Below, one piece after another: positions 5,642 through 38,878 of a DNA stretch of 64,000 bases. The position numbers and the translations under genes were made by a program. Every line of letters starts with the position of its first letter. Position 1 is the stretch's first letter. The notes under the pieces are model-generated. The model did not search any database. It saw nothing but the letters and a program-made list of their open reading frames with translations, and was not told the origin of the DNA. The DNA is from an uncultured Aquabacterium sp. Its GTDB lineage: Bacteria > Pseudomonadota > Gammaproteobacteria > Burkholderiales > Burkholderiaceae_C. The stretch spans positions 186,001 to 250,000 of the forward strand of contig NZ_CAJYGK010000115.1 of the NCBI RefSeq assembly GCF_913773725.1, given 5' to 3'.

Positions 5642-6379
5642 TCACAGTGCGAGCTTCACGAAGACGAACTCCGGGATGTGCTTGATGATCAGCATGATCA
5701 GCGCCCAAAAGCCCGGGGTGTAGACCACGGCCTTGCCCTTGTCCACGCCGGCCACGATGTCGCGTGCGACCTTGTCGGGCTTGGCCCACAGCGCCCCTTT
5801 CTTGAAGGCCGCCGTCATCGGTGTGTCCACAAAGCCGGGCTTGATCGTCACGACATGCACGCCTTTCTTGCTCAGGCGCTGCCGCAGCCCCGAGGCGAAC
5901 GCGCTGACCAGCGCCTTGGCGCTGCCATACACGTAGTTACTCTGCCGGCCACGGTCGCCCGCCACCGATGAGATCACCGCGATGGCACCATGGCCCTGGC
6001 GTTCAAAGCGCTCGCCTGCCAAGCCCATGAGGTTCACCACGGACACCCCGTTGGTGTGGATCTCGCCCAGGGCATAGCCCGCATCCGACTGTGCACGGGC
6101 CTGATCCGACAGCGTGCCGTGCGCGATCAGGATGGTGTCCAGCCCGCCCATGGCCTCGCTGGCTGCCTGCAGCAAGCTCGCATGCTGATCCAGTGCGTTG
6201 GCGTCGAACACCTGGGTCCCGACAAAGGCAGCGCCTCGGGTAACCAGGTCGCTGGCCACCGACTGCAGTGCGTCGGCACGGCGGGCCGCCAGAAACAGCT
6301 TGTCGCCGCGTTGGGCCCAGACGCGGGCCGTGGCTTCGGCGATGGCCGACGTGGCCCCGACGATCAGGATCTTTCTCAT
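5642..6379 (-). CDS. dprE2: DprE2-like short-chain dehydrogenase
   Basis: A 245-residue NAD(P)H-dependent SDR. It has the cofactor loop GATSAIAEATARVW near the N-terminus, a Ser in VISSVAG, the catalytic Tyr-x-x-x-Lys (YGSAK), and PGFVDTPM after it. In mycobacteria DprE2 reduces polyprenyl-phosphoryl-2-keto-ribose to the arabinose form. Assignment as DprE2 rests mainly on the immediate overlap (ATGA) with a DprE1-like gene and the HAD-UbiA gene one step upstream; on sequence alone it would only be called an SDR. The hydrophobic C-terminal stretch (FWALIMLIIKHIPEFVFVKLAL) resembles the membrane-tethering tail of DprE2 proteins. It is the last gene of a long minus-strand run. Confidence 0.8.
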   Translation of the reverse strand: MRKILIVGATSAIAEATARVWAQRGDKLFLAARRADALQSVASDLVTRGAAFVGTQVFDANALDQHASLLQAASEAMGGLDTILIAHGTLSDQARAQSDAGYALGEIHTNGVSVVNLMGLAGERFERQGHGAIAVISSVAGDRGRQSNYVYGSAKALVSAFASGLRQRLSKKGVHVVTIKPGFVDTPMTAAFKKGALWAKPDKVARDIVAGVDKGKAVVYTPGFWALIMLIIKHIPEFVFVKLAL

Positions 6380-7722
6380 GCTTGCTCCATGACCCTGCGC
6401 CAGAAGCCGGAGCTGAAGCGCGGGTCGACATACGAGGTGAATTCACGCCAGCGGGGGTAGCCCGCCTTGAACACGGCGGCGTCCATGCGGCCGTCCTTGG
6501 CCGGGTAAAGGCGGCCGCCAGCCTCCAGCACGATGCGGTCCAGCGCAGCGAACAGGCGATGCAGCCGCGGCCCCTGGTTGGGAAAGTCGAGTGCCAGCGT
6601 GGTGCCGGGCATGGGGAAGGACAGCAGGCCTTTCGAGGCCGGTTCACCGAACTGCTTGAGCACCGCCAGAAAGGAGCCCATGCCACTCGCCGAGATCGCC
6701 TCGAGCAGCGCCCGCGTGGCCTTCAGCGCCCGCTCGGGCGGGATCGCGCACTGGTACTGGTAAAAGCCCCGCGGGCCGTAGATGCGGTTCCATTCCAGCA
6801 GCGCGTCCAGCGGGTAGAAGAAGGGGCGGTAGTGCTGCAGCCCCTGCACCACGTCGTGCCGTTGCTTGTGAAAGTACAGCGTGTTGAACGACTTGAGCGA
6901 CAGGCTGTTGACGAGCGACAGCGGCGGCGTGATGGGCACGGTGCGGGCATGCTCGACCACCCCGGTGGGCAGCGAGCGGGGCAGCACGGACGTGTCCATC
7001 GTGGCGGGCGCGTGGTTGCCGCGGTTGAACAGCCCGCGGCCCAGGCGTCGGCCACCGAAGGCACAGTCGATCCACGAGACGGTGTACTCGTGGTCGGTTT
7101 CCGACGCCGTGCTGAGTTCGAAGAACTCTTCCAGGCTGCGAAAGCGGATGGACTCGGTCACCATGAAGGGGTTGTGCACCCGCCGCAGTTGCAGCTCGGC
7201 CCACGTGATCAGCCCGGTCAGGCCCAGGCCCCCCACCGTGGCGCCGAACCAGTCGGCATGCGACGTCGGGCTGCAGAGCCGCCGGCTGCCGTCCGAGCGC
7301 AGCAGCTCGAACTGCGTCACGTGGTTGCCGAAGGAGCCCGCCACGTGGTGATTCTTGCCATGCACGTCGTTGGCAATGGCCCCGCCCACGGTCACGAACT
7401 GCGTGCCGGGCGTGACAGGCAGGAACCAGCCTTGCGGCACGACCAGGCGCAGGATCTCGGAGAGCAGCACGCCGGCTTCGCAGCGCAGCACGCCGCTGGC
7501 TGGATCGAAGGCGATGAAGCGGTCGAGCTGGCGCCCCGGCAGCAGGGCTCCGCCCGGGTTCAGGTTGCTGTCGCCATAGCTGCGTCCGTTGCCGTAGGGC
7601 AGCATGTGGGCACAGCTGCCAGGCAGCGCCGGCAGGGGAGCGTGGCGCGAAGCCAGCGGCAGCAGTTCATGATCGGGGCGCAGCACCCGGCCCCACGAGG
7701 TGTACGACGAAGTCAACGCCAT
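6376..7722 (-). CDS. dprE1: DprE1-like FAD-dependent oxidoreductase
   Basis: A 448-residue oxidase expected to turn polyprenyl-phosphoryl-ribose into its 2-keto form. The FAD-binding domain shows YGNGRSYGDSNLNPGG (43-58) and PGTQFVTVGGAIANDVHGKN, both close to mycobacterial DprE1. The C-terminal region keeps LVVPQGWFLPV upstream and GGRLYPAKDGRMD late, with the lysine that contacts flavin/substrate in DprE1. The motif that carries the benzothiazinone-targeted Cys in M. tuberculosis reads TTLALDFP here, so Ala occupies that position by my alignment from memory. The gene overlaps dprE2 by 4 nt and lies 6 nt after the HAD-UbiA gene, so the three are one translational unit. Confidence 0.88.
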   Translation of the reverse strand: MALTSSYTSWGRVLRPDHELLPLASRHAPLPALPGSCAHMLPYGNGRSYGDSNLNPGGALLPGRQLDRFIAFDPASGVLRCEAGVLLSEILRLVVPQGWFLPVTPGTQFVTVGGAIANDVHGKNHHVAGSFGNHVTQFELLRSDGSRRLCSPTSHADWFGATVGGLGLTGLITWAELQLRRVHNPFMVTESIRFRSLEEFFELSTASETDHEYTVSWIDCAFGGRRLGRGLFNRGNHAPATMDTSVLPRSLPTGVVEHARTVPITPPLSLVNSLSLKSFNTLYFHKQRHDVVQGLQHYRPFFYPLDALLEWNRIYGPRGFYQYQCAIPPERALKATRALLEAISASGMGSFLAVLKQFGEPASKGLLSFPMPGTTLALDFPNQGPRLHRLFAALDRIVLEAGGRLYPAKDGRMDAAVFKAGYPRWREFTSYVDPRFSSGFWRRVMEQA

Positions 7723-7728
7723 ACGGGG

Positions 7729-9153
7729 TCAGGTGGCCGCCCACAGCACGACAGCGGCCGCCACGCCGGTGGCCAGGCTGGTGCGGTCCTTCAACGCGTA
7801 CACCAGCGGGTCGTCGTCCATGCGACCGCGGTAGGTTTCCATCCAGATGCGGCTGATCCAGTACAGCATCACGGGCACCAGCAGCCACACCAGCTTGGGC
7901 TGGGTGTAGAGCCGGGCGATGTCCGGCGAGTTCACATACAGGGCGAGCACCAGGATGCTGAGGTAGCCGCTGGCGGTGCCCAGGCTCTGCAGCAGGTGGA
8001 TGTCATCGACCTGATAGCCGCGCCCCGAGGCCTTGTCCTTGCCCTGGACCCGCATGGCATGCAGCTCGGCGTAGCGCTTGACGATGGCCAGGCTCAGGAA
8101 GATGAAGATCGCGAACATCAGCAGCCAGAACGACAAGGGGATGTCGGTGGCGGCGGCGCCGGCCACGATGCGCACGGTGTAGAGCCCGGCCAGCGTCAGC
8201 ACGTCGATCATCACCAGCCGCTTGAGCAGGAAGGAGTAGGCCAGCGTGACCACGTAATAGGCCACCAGCACACCGAGGAACTTGACGGGCAGCAGCAGGG
8301 CCAGGCCGAAGGCCACGAGCAGCAGCAGCGGGGCGGCAATCAGGCCGAAGAGCAGGCTCAGTGTGCCGGCGGCAAACGGGCGCCGGCACTTGCTGTGGTG
8401 TTGGCGGTCCGACTCCAGGTCCAGCATGTCGTTGAGCAGGTAGACCGAGGACGCACACAGGCTGAAGGCCACGAAGGCGATCAGCGCATCCAGCAGGACC
8501 GCGGTGTCGCCCAGCACGTGGGCGGCGGCCACGGGCACGAAGATCAGTGCGTTCTTGGCCCACTGGTGCACGCGCAAGGCCTTGGTGACCACCCTCAGCG
8601 TGGTGGGCTGCGGGGCGAACGTGGCCGCCACCTGGGTCACGGCGCGCGCGCGTGACTCCAGCGCCTTGCCCCCGTGCACCACCACCGCCGCTCGGGCTTG
8701 GGGCCACACCTTCAGGTCCACCGCCTCGTTGCCGCAGTAGTCGAAGCCCTTCTCGCCGAAGCGCTTCACCAGTTCGGCCGCCTTGTTGCGCCCCGACAGG
8801 TTGGTCTGTCCATCGCTGGACAGCACGCCGTCGAACAGGCCCACGTGGTCGGCCACGGCCTGGGCCAGCCGGCTGTCGGAGGCCGTCACCAGCCACAGGG
8901 CCCGGCCGGCCCGCTTCTGAACCCGCAGCCAGTCGAGAAAGGGGGCGGCGTAGGGCAGGGCCGCGCCGTTCAGCGTGACCCGGCTGGCGATCTCGCGCTT
9001 GAGCCGGGCCTTGCCGCCCAGCAGCCACAGCGGGACCAGCAGCAGGTACAGGGGGTTGCGCTTGATGAGCAGGAGAAAGGACTCGAGCAGCAGGTCGCTG
9101 TGGATGAGGGTGCCGTCAAGGTCGACGCAAAGGGGAACGTCTCGCTGGGTCAT
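7729..9153 (-). CDS. HAD phosphatase-UbiA fusion: polyprenyl-phosphate phosphoribosyltransferase (DPPR synthase-like)
   Basis: A 474-residue two-domain membrane enzyme. Residues 1-180 are a HAD phosphatase (nucleophile motif V10-DLDGT-L16 with Asp11/Asp13, then a Thr/Ser motif WLVTASDS near 87-93 and CGNEAVDLKVW). Residues from about 190 form a UbiA prenyltransferase with NDMLDLESDR (241-250) and a second cluster ending in KRYAEL (359-364), both close to mycobacterial Rv3806c. Rv3806c transfers 5-phosphoribose to decaprenyl phosphate; the fused HAD domain may remove the 5-phosphate, a step done by a separate protein in mycobacteria. Start 9153 overlaps the preceding stop (ATGA). Biochemical roles are inferred from family and neighbours. 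Confidence 0.85.
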   Translation of the reverse strand: MTQRDVPLCVDLDGTLIHSDLLLESFLLLIKRNPLYLLLVPLWLLGGKARLKREIASRVTLNGAALPYAAPFLDWLRVQKRAGRALWLVTASDSRLAQAVADHVGLFDGVLSSDGQTNLSGRNKAAELVKRFGEKGFDYCGNEAVDLKVWPQARAAVVVHGGKALESRARAVTQVAATFAPQPTTLRVVTKALRVHQWAKNALIFVPVAAAHVLGDTAVLLDALIAFVAFSLCASSVYLLNDMLDLESDRQHHSKCRRPFAAGTLSLLFGLIAAPLLLLVAFGLALLLPVKFLGVLVAYYVVTLAYSFLLKRLVMIDVLTLAGLYTVRIVAGAAATDIPLSFWLLMFAIFIFLSLAIVKRYAELHAMRVQGKDKASGRGYQVDDIHLLQSLGTASGYLSILVLALYVNSPDIARLYTQPKLVWLLVPVMLYWISRIWMETYRGRMDDDPLVYALKDRTSLATGVAAAVVLWAAT

Positions 9154-10127
9154 GTTGTCTTGGTATGGCGCAGCACCCAGACGCAATACCAGCCGATCAC
9201 AACGGCCAGCCACAGCGTCAGCAGGCGACACACCAGGGTCAGGAGGATGGCTTGGGGCATGGTGAAGCCGTGCGCGTACAGCAGACCGGCCATGACGAAT
9301 TCGGTGCTGCCCAGTCCACCGGGCAGGAAGGACAGCGCGCCCACGATGATGGCCACGGCATAGATGCCCATGGCGGAGGGCACGCCCAGCAGGTCGGGGG
9401 AGAGCACGTCGGCCACCACCTTGAGCCCGATGGCCTCCAGGCCCCATGCCACCAGGCCCAGGGCCATGCCGCCCAGCAGGATGCCGGGGGACAGCAGGGC
9501 GCGGGCGCGCACCAGGGTGTGGGCCATGCCTTGGGCGGGACGCAGCAGCCGGTGGGTCGAGACCCGGGCATCGAGGTGAGCGGCCACGCGAGCCCAGGGC
9601 AGCAGCATCAGCACGGCCAGCAGCCCGCCCACCAGGCCGAGCGCCACCCAGAGGAAGCGGGCGTAGGCGTGGAGCTCGGTCAGGGCGGCAGCCGTGAGCA
9701 GCACCATGGCGAGCAGGTCCAGCAGCCGCTCGACGAAGAAAGCCGCGCCCGACACCGGCAGCCCGATGCCATGGGGCTGGTAGTACCGCGCCCGCACCAT
9801 CTCGCCGATCTTGCCGGGCGACAGCGTGAAGGCAAAGCCGGACATGTAGGTGAGCGACACGAAGCGCCAGGGCAGCACATGCCCGAGCCGGGTCATGTAC
9901 AGCCGCCAGCGCCAGATCCTCAGGCCATAGTTCACCAGCGAGAGCGCGCCGGCCAGCAGCACGGCACCCCATCCGGCCTGCAGCGGGTGCAGGTCGATCT
10001 GGGCGATGTCTTTGCGGAAGGCCGTGACGCACCACACCGCAAACACCGCGAACAGCCCATAGACGACGAGCTTGCGTAGCAAGGAATGGCTGGCGGCGAC
10101 AGCTGGCGGGGCCGTGTTCGAGTTCAT
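9150..10127 (-). CDS. Flippase-like integral membrane protein (LPG synthase TM/AglD family)
   Basis: A 325-residue polytopic inner-membrane protein with about seven to eight hydrophobic segments. Family motifs include SGFAFTLSPGKIGEMVRARY, FFVERLLDLL and SFLPGGLGSTEF, typical of the lysylphosphatidylglycerol-synthase transmembrane region family (UPF0104). Members often sit beside lipid-linked sugar genes and some are suspected lipid transporters, though this is not settled. Its overlap with the HAD-UbiA gene suggests it acts on, or regulates, polyprenyl-phosphoryl-pentose at the membrane. No strong Shine-Dalgarno precedes the ATG at 10127. It is preceded by a 71-bp gap containing hairpins. 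Confidence 0.75.
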   Translation of the reverse strand: MNSNTAPPAVAASHSLLRKLVVYGLFAVFAVWCVTAFRKDIAQIDLHPLQAGWGAVLLAGALSLVNYGLRIWRWRLYMTRLGHVLPWRFVSLTYMSGFAFTLSPGKIGEMVRARYYQPHGIGLPVSGAAFFVERLLDLLAMVLLTAAALTELHAYARFLWVALGLVGGLLAVLMLLPWARVAAHLDARVSTHRLLRPAQGMAHTLVRARALLSPGILLGGMALGLVAWGLEAIGLKVVADVLSPDLLGVPSAMGIYAVAIIVGALSFLPGGLGSTEFVMAGLLYAHGFTMPQAILLTLVCRLLTLWLAVVIGWYCVWVLRHTKTT

Positions 10128-10198: not shown

Positions 10199-10762
10199 TC
10201 AGAAGGTGTCGGCGTGTTGGAGTACCGGCGCCTCTGCATCCTTTTGTGTCAGCAACGGCGTCATGCCGTTCAACGGCCAATCGATGCCGATGTCGGCGTC
10301 GTCCCAGCGGATGCTGCGCTCGTGTTCCTTCGAATAGGTGTCGGTGGTCTTGTAGAGGAAGTGCGTGTCGTCTTCCAGCGCGACGAAGCCGTGCGCAAAA
10401 CCTTCCGGGATCCACAACTGGCGGCGGTTGTCGGCATTGAGCTCCACCCCCACCCACTGCCCGAAGGTGGGCGAGCCCTTGCGGATGTCCACGGCCACAT
10501 CGAAGGCCGCCCCCTGGACGACGCGCACCAGTTTGCCTTGCGCGCGCGGGGCCAGCTGGTAATGCAGGCCACGCAGCACGCCCTTGCGGCTGCACGAGTG
10601 GTTGTCCTGCACGAACGGGCGTGGGACGGGGCGCCCCAATCGGGTGAGCTCGGCCTCGAAGCGGGCCTGGTTGAAGCTCTCCATGAACCAGCCCCGGTCG
10701 TCGCCGAACACGGCAGGCTCGATGATCAGCACGTCGTGCAGCGCAGTCTCGATCAGTTTCAT
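10199..10762 (-). CDS. rfbC: dTDP-4-dehydrorhamnose 3,5-epimerase
   Basis: A 187-residue cupin enzyme, third step of dTDP-L-rhamnose synthesis. The family signatures are present: FGDDRGWFMESFN, then FVQDNHSCSRKGVLRGLHYQ with the catalytic His, and WIPEGFAHGFVALED. Length matches the family. Start 10762 (MKLIETAL) gives the usual N-terminus; an upstream extension into the rfbA region is a frame artefact. It follows rfbA by 8 nt in a co-directional block in the order rfbB-rfbD-rfbA-rfbC. Confidence 0.97.
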   Translation of the reverse strand: MKLIETALHDVLIIEPAVFGDDRGWFMESFNQARFEAELTRLGRPVPRPFVQDNHSCSRKGVLRGLHYQLAPRAQGKLVRVVQGAAFDVAVDIRKGSPTFGQWVGVELNADNRRQLWIPEGFAHGFVALEDDTHFLYKTTDTYSKEHERSIRWDDADIGIDWPLNGMTPLLTQKDAEAPVLQHADTF

Positions 10763-10770
10763 GGGGCAGC

Positions 10771-11664
10771 TCAGTAGATTGTTTCGTTGAGCACCTTCAT
10801 CAGGTACTGGCCATAGCCGTTCTTCAGCATGGGGGCGGCGAGCTTTTCCAGCCGGGCAGCGTCGATCCAGCCCGAGCGGTAGGCGATTTCTTCGGGACAG
10901 GCGACCTTCAGGCCCTGGCGCTTTTCCAGTGTCGCGATGAACTGGCCGGCTTCCATCAGGCTGTCGTGCGTACCGGTGTCCAGCCAGGCATAGCCGCGGC
11001 CCATGATCTCGACACTCAGCTGGCCCTGCGCCAGGTAGCGCGCGTTGACGTCGGTGATCTCCAGCTCGCCGCGCGGGCTGGGCTGGATGCTGGCGGCGAT
11101 GTCGCACACCTGCTCGTCATAGAAGTACAGGCCGGTGACGGCGTAGTTGCTCTTGGGGGCCTTGGGCTTTTCTTCGATGCTGAGCGCCCGGCGTTGCGCA
11201 TCGAACTCGACCACGCCATAGCGCTCCGGATCGTGCACGTGGTAGGCGAACACGCTGGCGCCCGCGGTGCGCGCATTGGCGCTTTGCAGCTGGCGCTGCA
11301 GGTCGTGGCCGTAGTAGATGTTGTCGCCCAGCACCAGGGCGCTGGGGTGGCCACCCACGAAGTCACGCCCCAGGATGAAGGCTTGTGCCAGGCCGTCCGG
11401 GCTGGGCTGCACCGTGTACTGCAGGTTCAGGCCCCACTGGCTGCCGTCGCCCAGCAGCGCCTCGAAGCGGGGCGTGTCCTGCGGGGTGCTGATCAGCAGG
11501 ATGTCGCGGATGCCGGCCAGCATCAGCGTGCTCAGCGGGTAGTACACCATGGGCTTGTCGTACACCGGCAGCAGCTGCTTGCTGATGGCCAGGGTGGCCG
11601 GGTGCAGCCGTGTGCCGGAGCCGCCGGCCAGGATGATGCCCTTGCGGGTCTTGTCCATGTTCAT
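10771..11664 (-). CDS. rfbA: Glucose-1-phosphate thymidylyltransferase
   Basis: A 297-residue cytoplasmic enzyme that makes dTDP-glucose, the first step of rhamnose precursor synthesis. It opens with the nucleotide-binding loop [15 protein letters not shown] and has [31 protein letters not shown] and [18 protein letters not shown], all diagnostic of RmlA. Length is normal. The start overlaps the rfbD stop (ATGA, 11661-11664), indicating translational coupling; a second in-frame ATG lies two codons inside. Confidence 0.97.
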
Positions 11665-12581
11665 TCCCTCCCGAGGATTTCAGTGAGCATGCGCTCGACG
11701 CCGTGCTGCCACGGCGGCAGCGTCAGGCCGAAGCCCTCGCGCAGCTTGCGGGTGTCCAGCCGCGAGTTCAGCGGGCGCTGCGCGGGCGTCGGGTAGCCGC
11801 TGGTGGGCAGCGCCTCGATGGCCTCAGGCGCCACCCGGATGGGCTGGCCGCGTTCGCGCGCCCATTCGATGACGAAACGGGCGTAGTCGAACCAGCTGGT
11901 CTCGCCGCCGGCCACCAGGTGGTACAGGCCGAGCAGGTCGTGGCGGCCGCCCGCCACGGTGCGGATGGCGTGGGCGGTGACGTCGGCCAGCAAGTCAGCC
12001 CCGGTGGGCGCGCCGATCTGGTCGTTGATCACCTTGAGCTGGTCGCGCTCGGCGGCCAGGCGCAGCATGGTCTTTGCGAAGTTGCCGCCCCGTGCGGCGT
12101 ACACCCAGCTGGTGCGCAAGATCAGGTGGCGGCAGCCGCTGGCCTGGATCGCCTGTTCGCCCTCGAGCTTGGTGCGGCCGTACACGCTCAGCGGGCCGGT
12201 GGCCGCGGTCTCGTCGCGCGGGGCCGTGCCGCTGCCATCGAACACGTAGTCGGTGCTGTAGTGCACGAGCAGCGCACCGAGTTCGGCTGCCACCTGGGCG
12301 ATGAGGCCCGGTGTGGTGGCGTTCAGCGCCCGCGCCAGGTCCGGTTCGCTCTCGGCCTTGTCCACTGCAGTGTGGGCCGCGGCGTTGACGATGACGTCCG
12401 GCCGGATCGCGCGCACCAGCGCGGCCACCTGCTCGGGCTGGCTGAAGTCGGCGCGCAGCTCGGGGGCCTCGGCAGGGCCGGGGCTTTTGCGGTCCAGTGC
12501 GGTGACGCGGCCCAGCGGCGCCAGTGCCCGCTGCAGTTCCCAGCCAACCTGGCCGCCCTTGCCCAGCAGAAGAATGTGCAT
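11661..12581 (-). CDS. rfbD: dTDP-4-dehydrorhamnose reductase
   Basis: A 306-residue NAD(P)H-dependent reductase for the last step of dTDP-L-rhamnose synthesis. It shows the N-terminal Rossmann loop [13 protein letters not shown], the sequence [26 protein letters not shown], and the catalytic YGRTKLEGE. Start 12581 ([10 protein letters not shown]) matches the normal N-terminus of the family; the open frame continues upstream into rfbB without functional meaning. An 11-nt gap separates it from rfbB. Confidence 0.97.
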
Positions 12582-12592
12582 GGCGACCCCGC

Positions 12593-13678
12593 TCAGCCCT
12601 GGCGGCCGCTGTAGTTCTTCGCGATCCACTCGCGGTAGGCGCCCGAGCGCACGGTGTCGATCCACTCGGTGTTCTCGAGGTACCAGCGCACGGTCTTGTC
12701 GATGCCGGACTCGAAGGTCTCGGCCGGCTGCCAGCCGATCTCGCGCTGGATCTTGGTGGGGTCGATCGCGTAGCGGCGGTCGTGGCCGGGTCGGTCGGCC
12801 ACGTAGGTGATCAGGCTCTCGTACTTCGTGCCATCGGCGCGCGGGCGCAGGGCGTCCAGCTTGCGGCAGATGGTGGTCACCACATCGATGTTCTTGATCT
12901 CGTTGATGCCGCCGACGTTGTAGGTTTCGCCGCAGCGGCCCTTGTCCAGCACCTGGCAGATGGCCTCGCAGTGGTCACGCACGAACAGCCAGTCGCGGAT
13001 GTTCAGGCCGTCGCCATAGACGGGCAAGGGCTTGCCATCCAGCGCGTTCAGGATCATCAGCGGGATGAGCTTTTCGGGGAAGTGGTACGGCCCGTAGTTG
13101 TTGCTGCAGTTGGTCGTCAGCGTCGGGAAGCCGTAGGTGTGGTGGTAGGCGCGCACCAGGTGGTCGCTGCCAGCCTTGCTCGCCGAGTAAGGGCTGTTGG
13201 GGGCGTACGGCGTGGTCTCGCTGAAGGCCGGGTCGGTGTCCGCCAGCGAGCCATAGACCTCGTCGGTGCTGACGTGCAGGAAGCGGAAGGCAGCCTTGGC
13301 GTCCCCCTCCAGGGCGCCCCAGTACGCGCGGGCCTCTTCCAGCAGGCTGAAGGTGCCCACCATGTTGGTGTGGATGAACTCGCCCGGGCCGTGGATGGAG
13401 CGGTCAACGTGGCTTTCTGCCGCGAAGTGCACGATCAGGCGGGGGAGGTGGGTGGCCAGCGCGGTGCGCACGGCCTCGCGGTCGGCGATGTCGGCCTGCA
13501 CCAGCGTGGCCTGCCCGGACTGCAGGTAGCGGGCGATGGTGGCCGGATTGCCCGCGTAGGTCAGCTTGTCGAACACCACCACGGGTTCGGCCTGCAGCCC
13601 ATTGGCCGCAGCCCGCTCGAACCAGTGGTGCACGAAATTACCGCCGATGAAGCCGGCGCCGCCAGTGATCAGGATCAT
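12593..13678 (-). CDS. rfbB: dTDP-glucose 4,6-dehydratase
   Basis: A 361-residue NAD+-dependent SDR, second step of the rhamnose route. Signatures are [14 protein letters not shown] at the N-terminus, [19 protein letters not shown], the active-site Thr-Asp-Glu in STDEVYGSL, and [18 protein letters not shown] 13678 (MILITGG) is preferred over a TTG three codons upstream. No clear ribosome site is visible, and only 31 bp separate it from the GT2 gene upstream, so it is probably transcribed from the exosortase side. Confidence 0.97.
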
Positions 13679-13709
13679 GGCGGGCAAGTATGCCAGCCCA
13701 CAACGACGG

Positions 13710-14756
13710 TCAGGACCGGGATGCCATGTTCAGCCCGACCCCTCGGCTGGATGGGTTACAGACGTAGCGTGCCAGGGGCAGCCCCAGCCGGCGGGGCAGC
13801 AGCCAGATACCGAGGGCCCATCCTGCGAGGGCCAGCTTCACGGGCCAGCGGCAGTCCCGGATGCGAATGGATTGCCAGAGTGCCGGCCATTCCTGCCAGC
13901 CGGCCCGCAAGCCCGTGAGGTAGGACGGCGTCGTGTAGATCGCGCTGGCAAATGCCTGCTTCTGCAGCGAAAAGTCGGCTGCCACATCCGGCGCCAGCCG
14001 CTCGCCGGGAAGCGCCACGGCCAGCCAGGCACGCAGGCGCCGGTAGCGGTTGGCCTGGAGGGCCACGCGTGTGGTGCCCAGGGCGTTGCCAAAGCACAGG
14101 CTGGCCTGGTCCTGGTCCTTGTGTACGCGGTATTCCGCCAGGGCGTCGGGCAGAGCGCGGACGCGGCCGAGCAGCGCCGTGCCATAGCCGGCAAAGAAGT
14201 CGGCCCCATGCCGGTCCTGCCGGTGGGCCGGAATGGGCATGAGCCGTCTGAGGGCCGACACCCGATAGGCATTGCCACTGCCAGGCGCCGCGAAGAAGAG
14301 GCGACCCGCGCGGACCGTGTCGGCGAGATCGCCCTCGGCCATGCGTGTCGGGATCACCGACCCCTTGGCGGTGCCGTCCGGGCCGATGAGTGCCAGCCGG
14401 AAGTGCACCCGCGCCACCGCTTCGTCCACCATGGCGCGAGCCACTGCGCCCACGGCGTCCGGACGCAACCTGTCGTCCGAGTCGAGGAAGATCACGACAT
14501 CGCCCGACACGGTCCCCAGGCCGGTGTTGTAAGCCGCCACCTGTCCGCCGTTGGCCTGTGCGACCAGCGTAATCTGATTGCCGAAGCGCCGGGCGATCGC
14601 CAGCGAATCGTCGGTCGAGCCATCGTCGACGACGATCACCTCGTGCACAGGGTGCCGCTGGGTCAGGGCCGACGAGATCGCATCGCTCAGGAAGCGGTCG
14701 TAGTTGTGGTTGCAGATGACGATGGAAACGCGTGGCAGGCTCATGACGGGGCTCAT
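13710..14756 (-). CDS. GT2-family glycosyltransferase
   Basis: A 348-residue GT-A enzyme that would add one sugar to a lipid-linked repeat unit on the cytoplasmic face. The donor-binding region reads [14 protein letters not shown], then [10 protein letters not shown], and the DxD motif lies in [11 protein letters not shown] hydrophobic patch near the C-terminus ([20 protein letters not shown]) could tether it to the membrane. The start overlaps the EpsI stop by 4 nt, tying it to the exosortase genes. Donor and acceptor are unknown; the rhamnose genes directly downstream make dTDP-rhamnose a candidate donor. Confidence 0.88.
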
Positions 14757-15442
14757 CGGACGAGGTAGCTGCGGGTTTGCGGCGGAACGGCGGCCACGAG
14801 TTCACGGGCGAAGGATTCGACCAGCGCGTGGTGCGGGGCAGCGTCTTCGCCAGGGCGCACACGTTGAGAAACGCGAACCAGCATCCCGTCGGTCGTGCGG
14901 CCCTGAAGGCCTTCCTTCATGATCTGCCATCGGACTTGCCAGGGGCTGCTGCTGTAGGTGTCGCCGATGCGGATCCAGTAGCTGACCACTTCCATGCTGT
15001 TGCGCGCCTGGACGACCATGCGCTGCCCTGTGACGTTCTTGCCGGTCTGGGTGTCAGTAATACCGGTAAAAGTGACCGGTCGCAGCGAATTGACCTTGTA
15101 GCCTTGAGCCGGGTAGCAGAGCTCGGGCCTGTGGATCTTGACCTCCTGCCGCTGGTTCTTGCCGTACGCGAGGGCCAACATGACGGCGTCGCCGCGGTCG
15201 TTGATGTAGGTGCGAGAGACGACCTCGTCATACGGTTGATCGGTGGATGTGACCCCTTTGGTCGCCACCGAGACCTGTTGCAGAGGACTGGGCAGCAGCC
15301 GCCAGGTGCCGAAGGCCGCCGGCATGTGGGCCTCCAGGTCAGGGTCGGGAACGGCTGCGTTCAGCGACGGGCGCAGTACGACGGCCACGGCTGCGAACAG
15401 CAGCAGCATGCCTGCGACGGATGAGGCTCTGGCCCAGCTCAT
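14753..15442 (-). CDS. epsI: Exosortase-associated protein EpsI, copy 1
   Basis: A 229-residue protein of the EpsI family, always found with exosortases and required for methanolan production in Methylobacillus; its biochemical role is not known. An N-terminal hydrophobic segment (about 8-25) should anchor it in the inner membrane with the rest in the periplasm. The family core VKIHRPELCYPAQGYKV with its conserved Cys is present, as is SYWIRIGD. The start overlaps the exosortase stop by 4 nt and the stop overlaps the GT2 start by 4 nt. The second copy at 38168 is clearly divergent. Confidence 0.92.
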   Translation of the reverse strand: MSWARASSVAGMLLLFAAVAVVLRPSLNAAVPDPDLEAHMPAAFGTWRLLPSPLQQVSVATKGVTSTDQPYDEVVSRTYINDRGDAVMLALAYGKNQRQEVKIHRPELCYPAQGYKVNSLRPVTFTGITDTQTGKNVTGQRMVVQARNSMEVVSYWIRIGDTYSSSPWQVRWQIMKEGLQGRTTDGMLVRVSQRVRPGEDAAPHHALVESFARELVAAVPPQTRSYLVR

Positions 15443-16335
15443 GCGGTGCGCTCCTTCCGAGGACGTTGACGATCGAAGAACAGGCCCAGCAGCGAGTCGG
15501 CACCCACCGTCAGTGCCGTGGCCACCAGGAACAGCAGGATGCCGGCGAAGTCATGCACGAAGCCCTGGCCCACCTCGTCACCGAAGTAATAGGTGATGAG
15601 CACAAGGGCAATCACACGCAGCACATTCGAGGTAAACGAGATCGGGATGATGAGCGTGGCCAGCAGGATGTTGCGCGCACGGCTGGCGTGCTGGACTACG
15701 CTCATGTAGAACACGCCGATCGCCTCCAGCGCGAAGATGGAGTTGAGCCCTGCGCAGGCATCGGCCACCAGCAACTGGTAGGGGCCGATGTGCAGGGTCA
15801 CACCCATGCGGGCGATGGGATACCCGATGGCGTAGAGGATGTGCTCAGCGACATACGACACCCCCATCTTCAGCGGTGCTGTGACCACATCGACGATCGA
15901 GCCTGGCACCGGCACGAGGAAGATCAGGAAGAAGATCGGGAACCACATGGTCTTGAGACCCTGCCAGCCCCACAGCAGCAGCAGCACGCCCATGACCACG
16001 GGAATCTGCGAGACGGCATCCAGGAAGAGCACGTCCTGTGAGCGGCCCACCACATACATCAGACCGCCGGTGATCAGGATCAGCAGACCGGGCACCGTGG
16101 CCGGGCGGGCCCGAAGGGCCGTGAGTTGCGGATAGCGCTGCCAGGCCAGCCACAGCGCAAGGGCCAGCATCACCGGCCCATGCCCCTGCCCGACCACGCC
16201 CCAGATGAACTCGTCGAGGGCCCGATAGGTCGGGAAGTACATGATCAGCAAGGCCAGTCCGGCCAGCGCGGGAGCCCATCTGTGCAACTGGGCCGCGGCA
16301 TGCCAGGGCGTATGAGGAAGGGTGGGTGCAGTCAT
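15439..16335 (-). CDS. xrtB: Exosortase (XrtB type), copy 1
   Basis: A 298-residue, eight-helix membrane protease/transpeptidase of the EpsH family that is expected to cleave PEP-CTERM-type sorting tails. The catalytic triad residues are intact: Cys194 (ADACAGLNS), Arg240 (TSNVLRVIAL) and His261 (GQGFVHDFAG). The GHGP motif near 51-54 and KTMWFPIFFLIFLVPVPG are also typical. ATG 16335 is chosen; a TTG 12 codons upstream is possible. It heads a minus-strand unit running through epsI, GT2, rfbBDAC and probably on to dprE2. No substrate gene is visible nearby. Subtype B is judged by its pairing with EpsI and EpsF/G homologues. Confidence 0.92.
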   Translation of the reverse strand: MTAPTLPHTPWHAAAQLHRWAPALAGLALLIMYFPTYRALDEFIWGVVGQGHGPVMLALALWLAWQRYPQLTALRARPATVPGLLILITGGLMYVVGRSQDVLFLDAVSQIPVVMGVLLLLWGWQGLKTMWFPIFFLIFLVPVPGSIVDVVTAPLKMGVSYVAEHILYAIGYPIARMGVTLHIGPYQLLVADACAGLNSIFALEAIGVFYMSVVQHASRARNILLATLIIPISFTSNVLRVIALVLITYYFGDEVGQGFVHDFAGILLFLVATALTVGADSLLGLFFDRQRPRKERTA

Positions 16336-16540
16336 GAGGTGCCAGAAATGGAAGCCGTGAGCCGGGAGCAACCGGCGGGCCTTGCAAGCCCGTCATCCTC
16401 GGTTTTTCCCCGAAAAAAGGGGGGTCCTGAAAACACTGTTACGTCTGCGACGCACGCTCACCTCGGCATACAGCCTCCTCACATCTGACCCCTGTTGACG
16501 GGGGATGACGAGGAAGGATGCGTCGATAGACTGGGGCGTC
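16336..16540. other. Divergent promoter region, exosortase 1 / glycosyltransferase
   Basis: About 205 bp between divergently transcribed genes. It contains a run TTTTTCCCC-GAAAAAAGGGG around 16400-16425, locally A/T-rich for this DNA, and CCCCTGTTGACGGGGG at about 16491-16506, a short hairpin. Promoters for both directions are expected here, but I could not fix convincing -35/-10 pairs. Confidence 0.4.
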
Positions 16541-17578: not shown

Positions 17579-18967
17579 ATGCAGGCACACAGCACCTCTG
17601 CCGTTCCTCTCTTCGGATGGCGCCATGTCCATGTCCCGGCCCTGATCGCTTACGGGGCGCTGCTCCTTCTCGTGATCTGGCAATTCCGCTATCTGCCCTT
17701 TGCCGATTTCAACGAATGGACGTATCAGGCCTTCATCACCCGCACACTGCTGGACGGGACGGGCAGCGCGGTGTTCTACCTGCGCGAATATCCGGTTCCT
17801 TATGTCACGTCCCAGGCGGTGATGACGGCCTTGAACTTCCTGACCGACCCGGTTACGGCGGGGCGCTGGACGGTCACGTTGTACCTGGCGGCAGCGGCTG
17901 TCGTGGCCCGTCGCTTCGTTGTGGCGAACCGGCTTCGCCCCGAGTTGGCGTATCCGGCCTTGCTCGTCGGCATCGTGTGCAACTCGAGCTTCTGGAGCGG
18001 CTACCTGAACTACCAGTGCGGGCTGCTGGTGCTGATGGCCTATCTCTCGATTCCGTCAGCGCAGCGGCGGCAGCCCTGGGTGGTCTGTCTGGTGTCGTTG
18101 GCCGCGTTTGCCTGTCATGGATTCTGCCTGCTGGCGTTTGGCGTGATGGCGGGCATGCAAGCACTGATTGGATCATGGCGTGAGCGTCTCGCCTTTGCTG
18201 CGGCCATGCTGCCTGCCGCGGCCCTGACGCTGTGGTACCTGCTGGCGAAGTCCAACGACGCCATGCCGGCATTGCATGCCCCCGTCAGCCACGGAGACCT
18301 TCGCTTTCTGGCGTACAAGTTCTACACGCTGAGCAAGGCCGGGCCGTATCAGAACTTCATGATCGGGGATAGGACGGATCTGAATCGCTGGCCTGTGCTG
18401 TTCTGGCTCGGCTGTCTTGCCAATCTGGTCATCTCGGTGCTGCTGCTGGTGTGGCAGTACCGCGCGCTGCGGCGACCGGCCGCCGAGGCCGATGACCTGC
18501 AGGCCCTTCGGTGGGCGGCCATCTCGCTGGGGCTGGCCTGCCTGGTCGCGCCCGCCACGGCAATGCAGATCGTCAACCCCGGCGAGCGCCTGTTGTATCC
18601 GCAGCTTCTGTTGGTCTTCGTGTTGTGCCTCCGCCAGACCGGATCACCGTCCGAGGCGGGGGGGCGCAGCCTGCCCGGACTGGGCGCGGTGGCCGTGCTG
18701 ATGGTGTCGCTGGCCAGCCTCGTCAGCCTGGTTGTCGCGACAGAGAGGGAAGGCTACCAAGCCGTTCGGCCGGATGTGTTCGGTCAGGCCCAGCAAGGCT
18801 ATACGGAGCGCTTCTACTGGCACCGCCCCTATCAGTTTCTGGCCATGCAGGACCACATGATGGCTCGGTATGCGGGCCACCAGCGGCCCGACATGCCGAT
18901 CACCTTCACGACCAGCCTGATCGGCATGATGCCGACCGATCCTCCGATCACACGCCCCACGCCTTGA
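17579..18967 (+). CDS. Polytopic membrane protein, possible GT-C glycosyltransferase
   Basis: A 462-residue inner-membrane protein with about ten hydrophobic segments and a soluble C-terminal part (from about 395). I do not recognise a named family. The first extracytoplasmic loop contains FADFNEWTYQAFITRTLLDG, where acidic residues follow TM1, as in GT-C enzymes that take sugars from polyprenyl phosphates. A second such loop holds YREYPVPY-like aromatic residues. The cluster makes a probable polyprenyl-phosphoryl pentose donor, for which a GT-C acceptor enzyme would be needed, so this is a candidate. O-antigen polymerase-like function is the alternative. Its last 20 bp overlap the convergent pyruvyltransferase gene. 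Confidence 0.6.
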   Translation: MQAHSTSAVPLFGWRHVHVPALIAYGALLLLVIWQFRYLPFADFNEWTYQAFITRTLLDGTGSAVFYLREYPVPYVTSQAVMTALNFLTDPVTAGRWTVTLYLAAAAVVARRFVVANRLRPELAYPALLVGIVCNSSFWSGYLNYQCGLLVLMAYLSIPSAQRRQPWVVCLVSLAAFACHGFCLLAFGVMAGMQALIGSWRERLAFAAAMLPAAALTLWYLLAKSNDAMPALHAPVSHGDLRFLAYKFYTLSKAGPYQNFMIGDRTDLNRWPVLFWLGCLANLVISVLLLVWQYRALRRPAAEADDLQALRWAAISLGLACLVAPATAMQIVNPGERLLYPQLLLVFVLCLRQTGSPSEAGGRSLPGLGAVAVLMVSLASLVSLVVATEREGYQAVRPDVFGQAQQGYTERFYWHRPYQFLAMQDHMMARYAGHQRPDMPITFTTSLIGMMPTDPPITRPTP

Positions 18968-37278: not shown

Positions 37279-38196
37279 ATGTCTGTTGAAGTCACGCCAT
37301 CACCGGGTGCGTCCGCCATGCCGCCAGCGCCCCCTCTCGCCACGCCCGGGCTGGCCTGGGGCGTGGTGCTCCTGCTTGTCGGCTTTGCCTGCATGTACGG
37401 GCCCACGTACGCGCAACTCGCCCATTCCACCTGGGCGACGGACGAGCAGGGCCACGGGCCTCTGATCGTGGCCGCCAGCGCCTGGTTGCTTTGGACGGGG
37501 CGCTCGGAGATCTTTGCGGGGCCGTCCCGGCCGGCGCTGGCGTCGGGGTTCGGCGTGCTGGCTCTGGGGCTGCTTTGCTTCGTGGTGGGGCGTTCCCAGT
37601 CGGTCATCGAGCTGGAAGCCGGCTCCCAGATCCTTGTGCTGGCGGCAGGCCTGCTCGTGCTGCACGGCTGGTCGGCGCTGAAGCGGGCCTGGTTCCCGAT
37701 CCTCTTCCTCGTGTTCTCGGTGCCGCTGCCCGGTGCTTTCGTGCAGGCGATCACCATGCCGCTGAAACACGCGGTGTCGGTGGTGGCCGAGAAGATCCTG
37801 TATCTGGCGGGCTACCCGATCGGGCGCTCGGGCGTGGTGCTGGTGATCGGGCCCTACCAGTTGCTGGTGGCCGATGCCTGTTCGGGGCTGAACTCGCTGT
37901 TCACACTCGAGGCCCTCGGCTTGCTCTACATGAAGATCATGCGCTACCAGTCCAAGGTGCGCAATGTGCTGCTGGCCTTGATGATCGTCCCGATTTCGTT
38001 TGTTTCCAACGTGTCCCGCGTGCTGGTGCTGGTGCTGATCACCTACCATCTCGGGGACGAGGCGGGCCAGGGGTTTGCGCATGGTTTCGCCGGGATGGTG
38101 CTGTTTGCGATCGCGCTGGTGCTGACCTTCCTGTTCGACCGCCTGCTGGCGGCACGTTTTGACCGTGATGGAGGCGCCCGTGTGGAAGTTCGATGA
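37279..38196 (+). CDS. xrtB: Exosortase (XrtB type), copy 2
   Basis: A 305-residue eight-helix membrane protein of the EpsH/exosortase family. The active-site residues are Cys201 (ADACSGLNS), Arg247 (VSNVSRVLVL) and His268 (GQGFAHGFAG), with EQGHGP in the first loop and KRAWFPILFLVFSVPLPG. It shares architecture with the copy at 15439 but differs in many positions and has a longer Pro-rich N-terminus. It begins a nine-gene plus-strand unit (exosortase, epsI, gmd, wzx, GT2, GT4, wzy, GT4, wzz). No clear ribosome site precedes the ATG, so an internal start at codon 14 is possible. Confidence 0.92.
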   Translation: MSVEVTPSPGASAMPPAPPLATPGLAWGVVLLLVGFACMYGPTYAQLAHSTWATDEQGHGPLIVAASAWLLWTGRSEIFAGPSRPALASGFGVLALGLLCFVVGRSQSVIELEAGSQILVLAAGLLVLHGWSALKRAWFPILFLVFSVPLPGAFVQAITMPLKHAVSVVAEKILYLAGYPIGRSGVVLVIGPYQLLVADACSGLNSLFTLEALGLLYMKIMRYQSKVRNVLLALMIVPISFVSNVSRVLVLVLITYHLGDEAGQGFAHGFAGMVLFAIALVLTFLFDRLLAARFDRDGGARVEVR

Positions 38197-38878
38197 CCTG
38201 CGCCGCGTGGGCGTGGCCACCGTCGTGGCGCTGGTGGCCATGCTGGCGGCCGTGGGCGGCGCCGAAGCGCTCAGACCCCACCGGGTGATGGCCGACGAGC
38301 TGCCTGCGCTGAACCTGCAGGAGGTGGTCCCGCGGCAGTTCGGCGACTGGGTGGAGGCGGTGGATGCCGCGCCGGTGGTGTCGGATCCCACACTGGACGC
38401 GACGCTGGCTCAGTTCTATTCGCAGACGCTGTCGCGGACCTACGTCAACAGCAAGGGGCAGCGGGTGATGTTGTCGCTGGCATACGGGCGGAACCAGAAC
38501 TCGTGGAACTCGGCCGCCCACCGGCCCGAGTTCTGCTATGACGCACAGGGCTTCTCCGTGTCGGCGCGGGGGGTGACGGCGCTGCCGCTGTCCGGCCACA
38601 GCATTCCCGCCATGCGCATGGTGGGCATCAAGCAGCAGCGGCAGGAGCCGGTCACCTACTGGGTCACGCTGTCCGACTCGGTGGCTGTGCCCGGCCTGAG
38701 CCGCAAGCTGCAGCAGCTGCGCTACGGCATGCAAGGCATGATCGTGGACGGCATGCTCGTTCGCATGTCGTCTCTCGGTGCAGACGAGGCGGCCGAATTC
38801 GCGCTGCAGGACGCGTTCGCGCGTGATCTGGAGCGGGCGATGTCTCCGGACATGCGCTCACGTTTTTTTGGACATTGA
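38168..38878 (+). CDS. epsI: Exosortase-associated protein EpsI, copy 2
   Basis: A 236-residue EpsI-family protein with an N-terminal membrane anchor (about 17-32) and a periplasmic domain. The family core reads NSAAHRPEFCYDAQGFSV with the conserved Cys, followed by YWVTLSDS. ATG 38168 is chosen over a TTG three codons earlier; either way it overlaps the exosortase gene by about 30 nt, a tight pair. It differs substantially from copy 1, more than a recent duplication would. Confidence 0.9.
   Translation: MEAPVWKFDDLRRVGVATVVALVAMLAAVGGAEALRPHRVMADELPALNLQEVVPRQFGDWVEAVDAAPVVSDPTLDATLAQFYSQTLSRTYVNSKGQRVMLSLAYGRNQNSWNSAAHRPEFCYDAQGFSVSARGVTALPLSGHSIPAMRMVGIKQQRQEPVTYWVTLSDSVAVPGLSRKLQQLRYGMQGMIVDGMLVRMSSLGADEAAEFALQDAFARDLERAMSPDMRSRFFGH

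Follow-up and report, generated by a model that had tools for sequence, protein, structure and literature searches.

The four genes coding for a flippase-like protein, a HAD-UbiA fusion, a DprE1-like and a DprE2-like protein form one tight operon on the minus strand of the window (i.e., the whole stretch of 64,000 nt analysed in this work) and very probably direct the making and the export of polyprenyl-phosphoryl-beta-D-arabinofuranose. This reading is based on the gene order, the family relationships, the conservation of the active sites and the predicted fold of HAD-UbiA, from which we infer all the enzyme activities as well as the role of the flippase. According to the proposed scheme, the UbiA domain would use PRPP to place 5-phosphoribose on a polyprenyl phosphate, probably that of undecaprenol, and the fused HAD domain would remove the 5'-phosphate; DprE1 would then oxidise the 2'-hydroxyl and DprE2 would reduce it with inversion, a C2' epimerisation converting ribose into arabinose. 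The LPG_synthase_TM protein might flip the resulting polyprenyl-phosphoryl-D-arabinofuranose to the periplasm, after which a presumed GT-C enzyme might place D-Araf onto a presumed surface glycan, probably also containing L-rhamnose.

D-arabinose is best known as a sugar of the mycobacterial cell wall. The operon adds a betaproteobacterial genus with the first donor enzyme in 38 of the 42 genomes searched, and it offers a testable candidate for the flipping of pentose-linked polyprenyl phosphates. The first-pass annotation had described the pathway as "complete": a full donor gene set from PRPP is present in this betaproteobacterium, with the UbiA half in the phosphoribosyltransferase subfamily, but the term holds for the donor only and does not extend to its use, because no arabinosyltransferase was identified.

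Organization and Distribution of the Operon

The features of the locus are listed in Table 1. According to the ORF calls, the ATG of HAD-UbiA overlaps the stop of the flippase-like gene by 4 nt, a 6-nt gap separates HAD-UbiA from the DprE1-like gene, and the latter overlaps the DprE2-like gene by 4 nt; upstream of the operon lie rmlC, rmlA, rmlD and rmlB, all scoring above the equivalog cut-offs. The linkage of HAD-UbiA with the two DprE-like genes behind the flippase-like and rhamnose genes, as originally claimed, is thus borne out by the ORF positions and by family matches far beyond chance.

Table 1. Features of the operon and of the adjoining locus (positions of the 64,000-nt window; the four operon ORFs lie within 5642-10127).
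Feature	Position	Strand	Family match
DprE2-like SDR reductase, 245 aa (predicted 2'-keto reductase, giving arabinose)	5642..6379	-	NF005489, 322.5 bits (cut-off 267)
DprE1-like FAD oxidase, 448 aa (predicted polyprenyl-P-ribose 2'-oxidase)	6376..7722	-	NF053785, E 1.8e-114, 383.5 bits
HAD-UbiA fusion, 474 aa (proposed to act as polyprenyl-phosphate 5-phosphoribosyltransferase and to carry its own phosphatase domain)	7729..9153	-	NF006088, 671 bits (cut-off 351)
LPG_synthase_TM (flippase-like) membrane protein, 325 aa	9150..10127	-	PF03706, E 2.3e-37; TIGR00374, 46.9 bits (cut-off 43.2)
rmlC, dTDP-4-dehydrorhamnose 3,5-epimerase	10199..10753	-	TIGR01221, 255 bits, over cut-off
rmlA, glucose-1-phosphate thymidylyltransferase	10771..11664	-	TIGR01207, 523 bits, over cut-off
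rmlD, dTDP-4-dehydrorhamnose reductase (start picked by eye; searched as 11661-12584)	11661..12581	-	NF007440, 437 bits, over cut-off
rmlB, dTDP-glucose 4,6-dehydratase (start picked by eye; searched as 12593-13681)	12593..13678	-	TIGR01181, 474 bits, over cut-off
GT2 glycosyltransferase	13710..14756	-	PF00535, E 4.4e-25
EpsI (14753-15442) and exosortase B (15439-16371)	14753..16371	-	PF11984 and TIGR02914; TIGR03113, 334 bits, over cut-off
P0006, orphan multi-TM protein, 462 aa (weak GT-C candidate)	17579..18967	+	no Pfam or NCBIfam match

HAD-UbiA is near-core in the genus, matching strongly (E 1e-68 or lower) in 38/42 genomes, two of these matches being partial and two about 50% identical; the raw tally is 42/42, since further UbiA genes are picked up at E 0.001. 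Among 14 control genomes, 10 gave matches under the cut-off and none exceeded it. The comparison of gene neighbourhoods was carried out on 81 loci, that is, the best 80 of 216 relatives plus our own, with flanks of differing length; this set leans to close relatives because the best 80 were taken. Twenty-nine loci (L001-L026, L028, L030 and L033) with a HAD-UbiA at least 72% identical are referred to as Aquabacterium-like, some of them being named only as Burkholderiales, Proteobacteria or Leptothrix.

The HAD-UbiA Fusion

In the profile search, the nearest functionally named UbiA family of HAD-UbiA is decaprenyl-phosphate phosphoribosyltransferase (E 9.7e-46, 156 of 207 bits), the haem O (E 9e-7) and 4-hydroxybenzoate (E 3.5e-5) enzymes being far weaker; the fusion does not fall into a different prenyltransferase subfamily, an outcome that the first-pass annotation had named as contrary to its reading. 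The only PDB relatives by sequence are Rv3806c entries (best E 1.1e-31). Ten of the eleven mapped PRPP contacts of Rv3806c, as named in PMC10994848, are identical in HAD-UbiA (R22, K28, Y70, N73, D77, K87, R90, Y138, K143 and Y157; K208 is outside the alignment and hence not among the eleven), and the ribose contact Q135 is replaced by T303, a Thr shared by 81/81 loci (best 80 of 216 relatives plus own). According to that paper, the phosphoribose site is not conserved across other UbiA enzymes, and N73 and D77 are kept in them; this sharing and the Thr in place of Q135 count against the main reading.

The AlphaFold model of HAD-UbiA (pLDDT 92.4) has 8j8j (Rv3806c) as its top Foldseek match (E 3.9e-11, TMt 0.83), with other UbiA structures at TMt 0.64-0.70 among ranks 3-21 of the same list. 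Its HAD half matches phosphoserine phosphatases, and the HAD residues D11, D13, K124 and D146 are present in all 81 loci (best 80 of 216 relatives plus own). Sequence and model together support the placing of the UbiA half within the PRPP-using phosphoribosyltransferase subfamily of Rv3806c, and HAD-UbiA as a whole would correspond to the PPPRS plus PRP/HAD component of the three-component pentofuranose system outlined in PMC11127046. The idea that it is an ordinary prenyltransferase is rejected by the family, residue and fold evidence.

The Flippase Candidate

An LPG_synthase_TM gene lies directly upstream of HAD-UbiA in 28/28 Aquabacterium-like loci with upstream DNA and in 8/48 of the others (best 80 of 216 relatives plus own). 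When the 55 loci of at least 19 kb from this set were compared, GtrA was found in none of the 25 having LPG_synthase_TM in that position vs. 15 of the other 30, the GtrA profile having been built from nine of the loci later counted and one match (L057) being weak. Outside Aquabacterium the figures are 0/6 vs. 15/30 (Fisher p 0.03, a statistic that ignores relatedness). On a tree of 64 of the 81 sequences, three changes of the flippase-arrangement label are needed, which is compatible with one origin. The profile search of our own genome gave no GtrA match. Small membrane ORFs were also surveyed on the same strand near HAD-UbiA in the loci outside the Aquabacterium-like group, 35 of 43 being compared with Pfam.

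On the basis of gene position, we propose that LPG_synthase_TM is the flippase of polyprenyl-phosphoryl-arabinose, even though relatives of this protein sit beside GtrA in five GtrA loci (L037, L038, L040, L064 and L074), which speaks against this role as the best explanation. PMC11127046 describes direct evidence for flippase activity as lacking in the known pentofuranose systems. LPG_synthase_TM as a pentose-lipid flippase was not found among the papers listed in the literature search, by which absence is not proven, and the flippase type is the new angle of this locus.

Possible Acceptors and the Putative Arabinosyltransferase

We give about even chances to a surface structure common to the genus (LPS, pilin or some other glycan of the envelope) as the acceptor of the D-arabinose, the EPS genes being mere neighbours: HAD-UbiA is near-core, rmlC is kept upstream of the flippase in 23 of the 28 Aquabacterium-like loci that extend far enough upstream (best 80 of 216 relatives), and the EPS blocks beside the operon differ between species. 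PMC12369383 and PMC5080398 also provide precedents for Araf on pili and on Nod factors, respectively. What argues against it is that no conserved arabinosyltransferase was found. The four-gene operon contains none, and searching the genome for the PMT_2, GT87 and AftB-type families brought up no convincing candidate: the AftB-type family NF041481 had no match in it, and PMT_2 matched at four places, two of them on contig C135 (one of these belongs to a gene row that also holds an LPG_synthase_TM gene and a GT2). The other GT-C proteins of the genome, P0007 and P0008, have as whole proteins no Pfam match at E 0.001; they match only 14 and 15 of the 42 genus genomes, respectively, and neither tracks HAD-UbiA across the genus. 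Of 38 multi-TM proteins encoded close to the operon in one locus or another, three match PMT_2, one matches GT87 and several others belong to unrelated families. Such a protein adjoins the operon in the relatives L006, L015, L011 and L025; that of L015 weakly matches NF041481 (E 6.3e-4), and neither this protein nor that of L011 had a match in the PDB. The broader proposal that in Aquabacterium an MprF-type LPG_synthase_TM replaces the GtrA or MATE/SMR-like flippase, and that at the same time the operon serves a genus-wide D-arabinose surface glycan via an arabinosyltransferase from a GT-C family not yet described, is tentative, and we hold it at somewhat less than even chances.

It seems rather unlikely that D-arabinose enters the EPS of the adjoining locus (GT2, EpsI, exosortase B, Wzx, Wzy-like and Wzz) with P0006 as the transferase. 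The operon is physically linked to this locus via rmlBDAC, and P0006, the single candidate of the EPS block, 7.5 kb from the operon, has multiple TMs; the first of them is followed by an acidic DxxEW, as is seen in GT-C enzymes, and further on comes an ER..YP, both kept in the three sequences available. However, it is found in 1/150 family genomes (our own), while HAD-UbiA occurs in 38/42 genus genomes; its relatives occur only in the EPS blocks of L003 and L009 among the 80 fetched loci (best 80 of 216), and the EPS neighbours vary. In the class, 2/369 genomes matched, our own and one in which only a short stretch, interrupted by three in-frame stops, was hit (E 3.5e-4); no plasmid match and no relative in viral contigs were found. 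Its model, made from three sequences, is poor (pLDDT 51.7): Foldseek gave no row at E 0.001, the top row (AftD, E 1.3) not being evidence, and the sole match in a profile search of the PDB was unrelated (E 2.3). P0006 was not accepted as the arabinosyltransferase, being rare, without a family match and poorly modelled. Of the original claim of a D-arabinose donor for the EPS polymer, the donor gene set stands, and the tie to the EPS is a weak one, given that nearly the whole genus has HAD-UbiA while the flanking EPS genes vary. D-arabinose in Aquabacterium was not found among the papers listed in the literature search, which does not prove absence.

The DprE1-like and DprE2-like Proteins

The DprE1-like protein matches PDB DprE1 with E 1.9e-79 and is named "-like" because its score lies under the curated NF053785 cut-off (500 bits). 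The DprE2-like one is likewise under the NF053786 cut-off (198.7 vs. 250 bits, E 1.2e-58) and above that of NF005489 (PRK07102). The two scores under the DprE1 and DprE2 cut-offs count against the main reading of the operon. Among the best 80 of 216 relatives plus own, the DprE1-type H121 and K123 are present in 71/71 sequences and K409 in 70/71, Ala occupies in 71/71 the position of the Cys of Mtb DprE1 ICVDF, and the DprE2-type G8, Y151 and K155 are present in 68/68. This active-site conservation suggests that the DprE1-like protein works as DprE1.

DprE1 and DprE2 homology follows HAD-UbiA in 67 of the 73 loci that continue for 2.3 kb or more behind it (best 80 of 216 relatives plus own), i.e., in 26/26 Aquabacterium-like and 41/47 other loci. 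In L024, counted among those with both, the two genes are shortened and fused; in L064, DprE1 is split over two frames. It is very improbable that the product is a different polyprenyl-linked pentofuranose (with the ribose retained, or xylofuranose), the DprE-like pair performing a different redox step: the scores under the curated cut-offs, the six other-taxon loci without an adjoining pair (L032, L035, L059, L069, L075 and L079) and the Citrobacter case, where HAD-UbiA alone gives Ribf and one additional SDR gives Xylf (PMC11127046), would agree with it, but this locus has both the oxidase of DprE1 type and the reductase of DprE2 type, linked and with conserved active sites, and the same source associates the DprE1/E2 pair with Araf glycans.

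Comparison with Known Systems

The chemistry of a polyprenyl-phosphoryl-D-arabinose donor is not new, such pathways being already known in other Gram-negative bacteria according to PMC11127046, PMC12369383 and PMC5080398, and the operon is no surprise for the phylum. A HAD-UbiA of the same layout has been proven in Citrobacter to make polyprenyl-P-Ribf (Kelly 2024, PMC11127046). Compared with the C. youngae O1/O2 system of that paper (ORF15 HAD-UbiA, ORF14 flippase, ORF12 GT136), both loci share the fused HAD phosphatase and UbiA-type PRPP transferase, with the tested Asn/Asp motif kept, and carry genes for a lipid-linked pentofuranose donor beside surface-polysaccharide genes. They differ in the product, which is Ribf or Xylf (SDR ORF13) in C. 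youngae, where Aquabacterium has DprE1/DprE2 homologues instead; in the flippase, a proposed four-TM MATE/SMR-like protein vs. the LPG_synthase_TM candidate; and in the GT-C, linked in C. youngae and absent from the Aquabacterium operon.

Pseudomonas paraeruginosa PSPA7_6245-6251 likewise represents Gram-negative D-arabinofuranose genes with ubiA, the acceptor there being the type IV pilin and the transferase its own TfpW (PMC12369383); the P. aeruginosa UbiA, as described in PMC11127046, is without the fused phosphatase, unlike HAD-UbiA. The rhizobial noeCHOP/noeCNHOP genes also provide a polyprenyl-phosphoryl-arabinose donor in a proteobacterium; they are dedicated to Nod factors, with NoeP as the transferase and noeN proposed as a separate phosphatase gene, and the parts of PMC5080398 and PMC2443382 at hand do not mention a flippase.

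As for the mycobacterial pathway (Rv3806c, Rv3807c, DprE1 and DprE2), the same order of reactions is expected in Aquabacterium, and Rv3806c is the nearest solved structure to HAD-UbiA. The predicted Aquabacterium phosphatase is the fused HAD domain, whereas the mycobacterial one is a separate, unrelated enzyme; moreover, the candidate flippase belongs to another family, and the lipid is likely undecaprenol in Aquabacterium.

The predicted donor operon and its first enzyme

The predicted polyprenyl-phosphoryl-D-arabinose donor pathway proposed in the first-pass annotation is real and well formed, and its four genes are tightly packed (see the table). The operon lies on contig C115 of a 4.5 Mb genome. 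Comparison of HAD-UbiA gives a MAG of Aquabacterium olei as the nearest named relative (99%; among the best 80 of 216 relatives). Upstream and co-directional with it are rmlC, rmlA, rmlD and rmlB, each above an equivalog cut-off, together with genes for a GT2 enzyme, EpsI and exosortase B. The exosortase B and EpsI pair occurs twice in the window (14753-16371 and 37279-38878), each copy adjoining its own polysaccharide-export genes.

Packed genes of the putative arabinose donor operon
Gene	Position in the window	Strand	Arrangement
flippase-like gene	10127-9150	minus	first of four packed genes
HAD-UbiA	9153-7729	minus	4-nt overlap with flippase-like gene
DprE1-like	7722-6376	minus	6-nt gap after HAD-UbiA
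DprE2-like	6379-5642	minus	4-nt overlap with DprE1-like

The match of HAD-UbiA to NF006088 scores 671 bits and spans the whole protein. The closest functionally named UbiA family is decaprenyl-phosphate phosphoribosyltransferase (E 9.7e-46, under that family's cut-off), the haem O (E 9e-7) and 4-hydroxybenzoate (E 3.5e-5) enzyme families being distant, and a PDB sequence search returned two Rv3806c entries as the only relatives. Among the Rv3806c PRPP contacts named in the cryo-EM paper (PMC10994848), 11 could be mapped, K208 falling outside the alignment, and ten are identical in HAD-UbiA. These ten are kept in all 81 loci compared (the best 80 of 216 relatives and our own), except Y325 (80/81), and the Q135 position is Thr in 81/81. 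Since N73 and D77 are described in that paper as common to the wider UbiA family, the other eight contacts represent the discriminating evidence. The AlphaFold model (35 sequences; pLDDT 92.4) has Rv3806c as its best PDB structural match (E 3.9e-11, TM 0.83 by target), followed by other UbiA structures at 0.64-0.70 (among ranks 3-21); its HAD half matches phosphoserine phosphatases, and the Asp pair, Lys and Asp of this domain are conserved in 81/81 loci. According to PMC11127046, a Citrobacter protein with the same HAD and UbiA layout makes farnesyl-P-ribose from PRPP, its HAD domain removing the 5'-phosphate.

The putative epimerase pair and the predicted sugar

The nearest PDB relative of the product following HAD-UbiA is DprE1 (E 1.9e-79). 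This protein (383.5 bits, cut-off 500) and its partner (198.7 bits, cut-off 250, though above that of PRK07102) score below the NCBIfam DprE1 and DprE2 cut-offs, and are therefore called DprE1-like and DprE2-like. In DprE1-type relatives, HGKNHH retains its His and Lys in 71/71 and AKD its Lys in 70/71; among DprE2-type relatives, 68/68 have the SDR Tyr and Lys. Residue 377 of the DprE1-like protein is Ala in 71/71, aligned with the Cys of the mycobacterial ICVDF motif (Cys387), the target of covalent benzothiazinones.

Homology to both proteins adjoins HAD-UbiA in 67 of the 73 loci with room for it (26/26 Aquabacterium-like, 41/47 others). Given this linkage and the association of Araf-containing glycans with DprE1/E2 homologues, as reported in PMC11127046, arabinose, rather than ribose or xylose, is the best prediction. 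Six loci (L032, L035, L059, L069, L075 and L079) carry HAD-UbiA without DprE1/DprE2 in the flanks examined and might be ribose or xylose versions. The two homologies are shortened and fused at L024:11452-13098, and DprE1 is split over two frames at L064:11422-12704, through either decay or assembly error.

Distribution and possible acceptor

HAD-UbiA is strong (E 1e-68 or lower) in all but four of 42 genus genomes, namely G810, G814, G827 and G836, the last only 71% complete. Of 300 genomes sampled from the order, 33, our own counted, exceed the NF006088 cut-off; 0/14 control genomes do so, and 10/14 match below it; HAD-UbiA relatives occur in 100 of 72,556 plasmid records. In a tree of 64 of the 81 sequences, the Nitrospirota rows fall into two parts and L070, whose record bears the name Comamonas sp. 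KCTC 72670, is nested among Myxococcus, making horizontal spread by transfer likely; for L070 itself, either transfer or a mislabelled genome would account for the placement.

The tie of the pathway to the adjoining exopolysaccharide, made in the earlier proposal, is physical and weak: exosortase genes occur in 8/29 Aquabacterium-like loci, within flanks of differing length (one of the loci, L001, is a fragment of the window), and the remaining exopolysaccharide genes vary. Because 23 of the 28 such loci with upstream DNA have rmlC upstream of the flippase-like gene, a glycan bearing both rhamnose and arabinose is plausible.

The four-gene operon contains no arabinosyltransferase, and profile searches of the genome gave zero matches to GT87 and to the AftB-type family. 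PMT_2 matches fall in four places, two on contig C135 and two weak ones, P0007 (28.1 bits) and P0008 (24.4 bits; cut-off 26.1), found in 14/42 and 15/42 genus genomes versus 38/42 for strong HAD-UbiA. P0006, in the exopolysaccharide block, has GT-C-like features, no family match, few relatives and a poor structure model. Elsewhere, a multi-TM protein lies between rmlC and the flippase (L006, L015) or directly after DprE2 (L011, L025), the L015 protein being a weak match (17.9 bits, cut-off 1050; E 6.3e-4) to the terminal beta-(1->2)-arabinofuranosyltransferase family. From these differing candidates we infer that the transferases near the donor operon seem to be swapped from species to species, the operon itself staying constant.

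The candidate flippase and comparison with known systems

The product of the translationally linked flippase-like gene is an LPG_synthase_TM protein and a relative of the MprF membrane domain. Such a gene stands immediately upstream of HAD-UbiA in 28/28 Aquabacterium-like and 8/48 other loci with upstream DNA. Mycobacterial Rv3789 is a GtrA-type SMR-family protein, and a profile search found no GtrA match in our genome. In the 55 loci that reach 19 kb or more, a GtrA gene is found in 0/25 with LPG_synthase_TM directly upstream versus 15/30 without; outside the Aquabacterium-like group the figures are 0/6 versus 15/30 (Fisher p 0.03, relatedness ignored). Fifteen loci with neither arrangement, and five GtrA loci in which an LPG_synthase_TM relative adjoins GtrA, count against a clean swap. 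Epimerase-like, amine-oxidase-like (both Pfam-checked in L031 only) and GtrA genes recur beside the arabinose genes in L031, L037, L038, L040, L064 and L074, five of which also carry an LPG_synthase_TM gene.

A second lipid-sugar set of the same genome, on contig C135 (L090:5185-9805), has LPG_synthase_TM, GT2, PMT_2 (weakly like 4-amino-4-deoxy-L-arabinose transferase) and PAP2 phosphatase genes in a row; this is a hexose-type layout, again placing the LPG_synthase_TM family next to lipid-sugar transfer. The operon belongs to an already published kind of system, of which it is probably a flippase variant: the published systems, as described in PMC11127046, use SMR-family or MATE/SMR-like flippases, whereas the Aquabacterium operon carries an LPG_synthase_TM protein instead.
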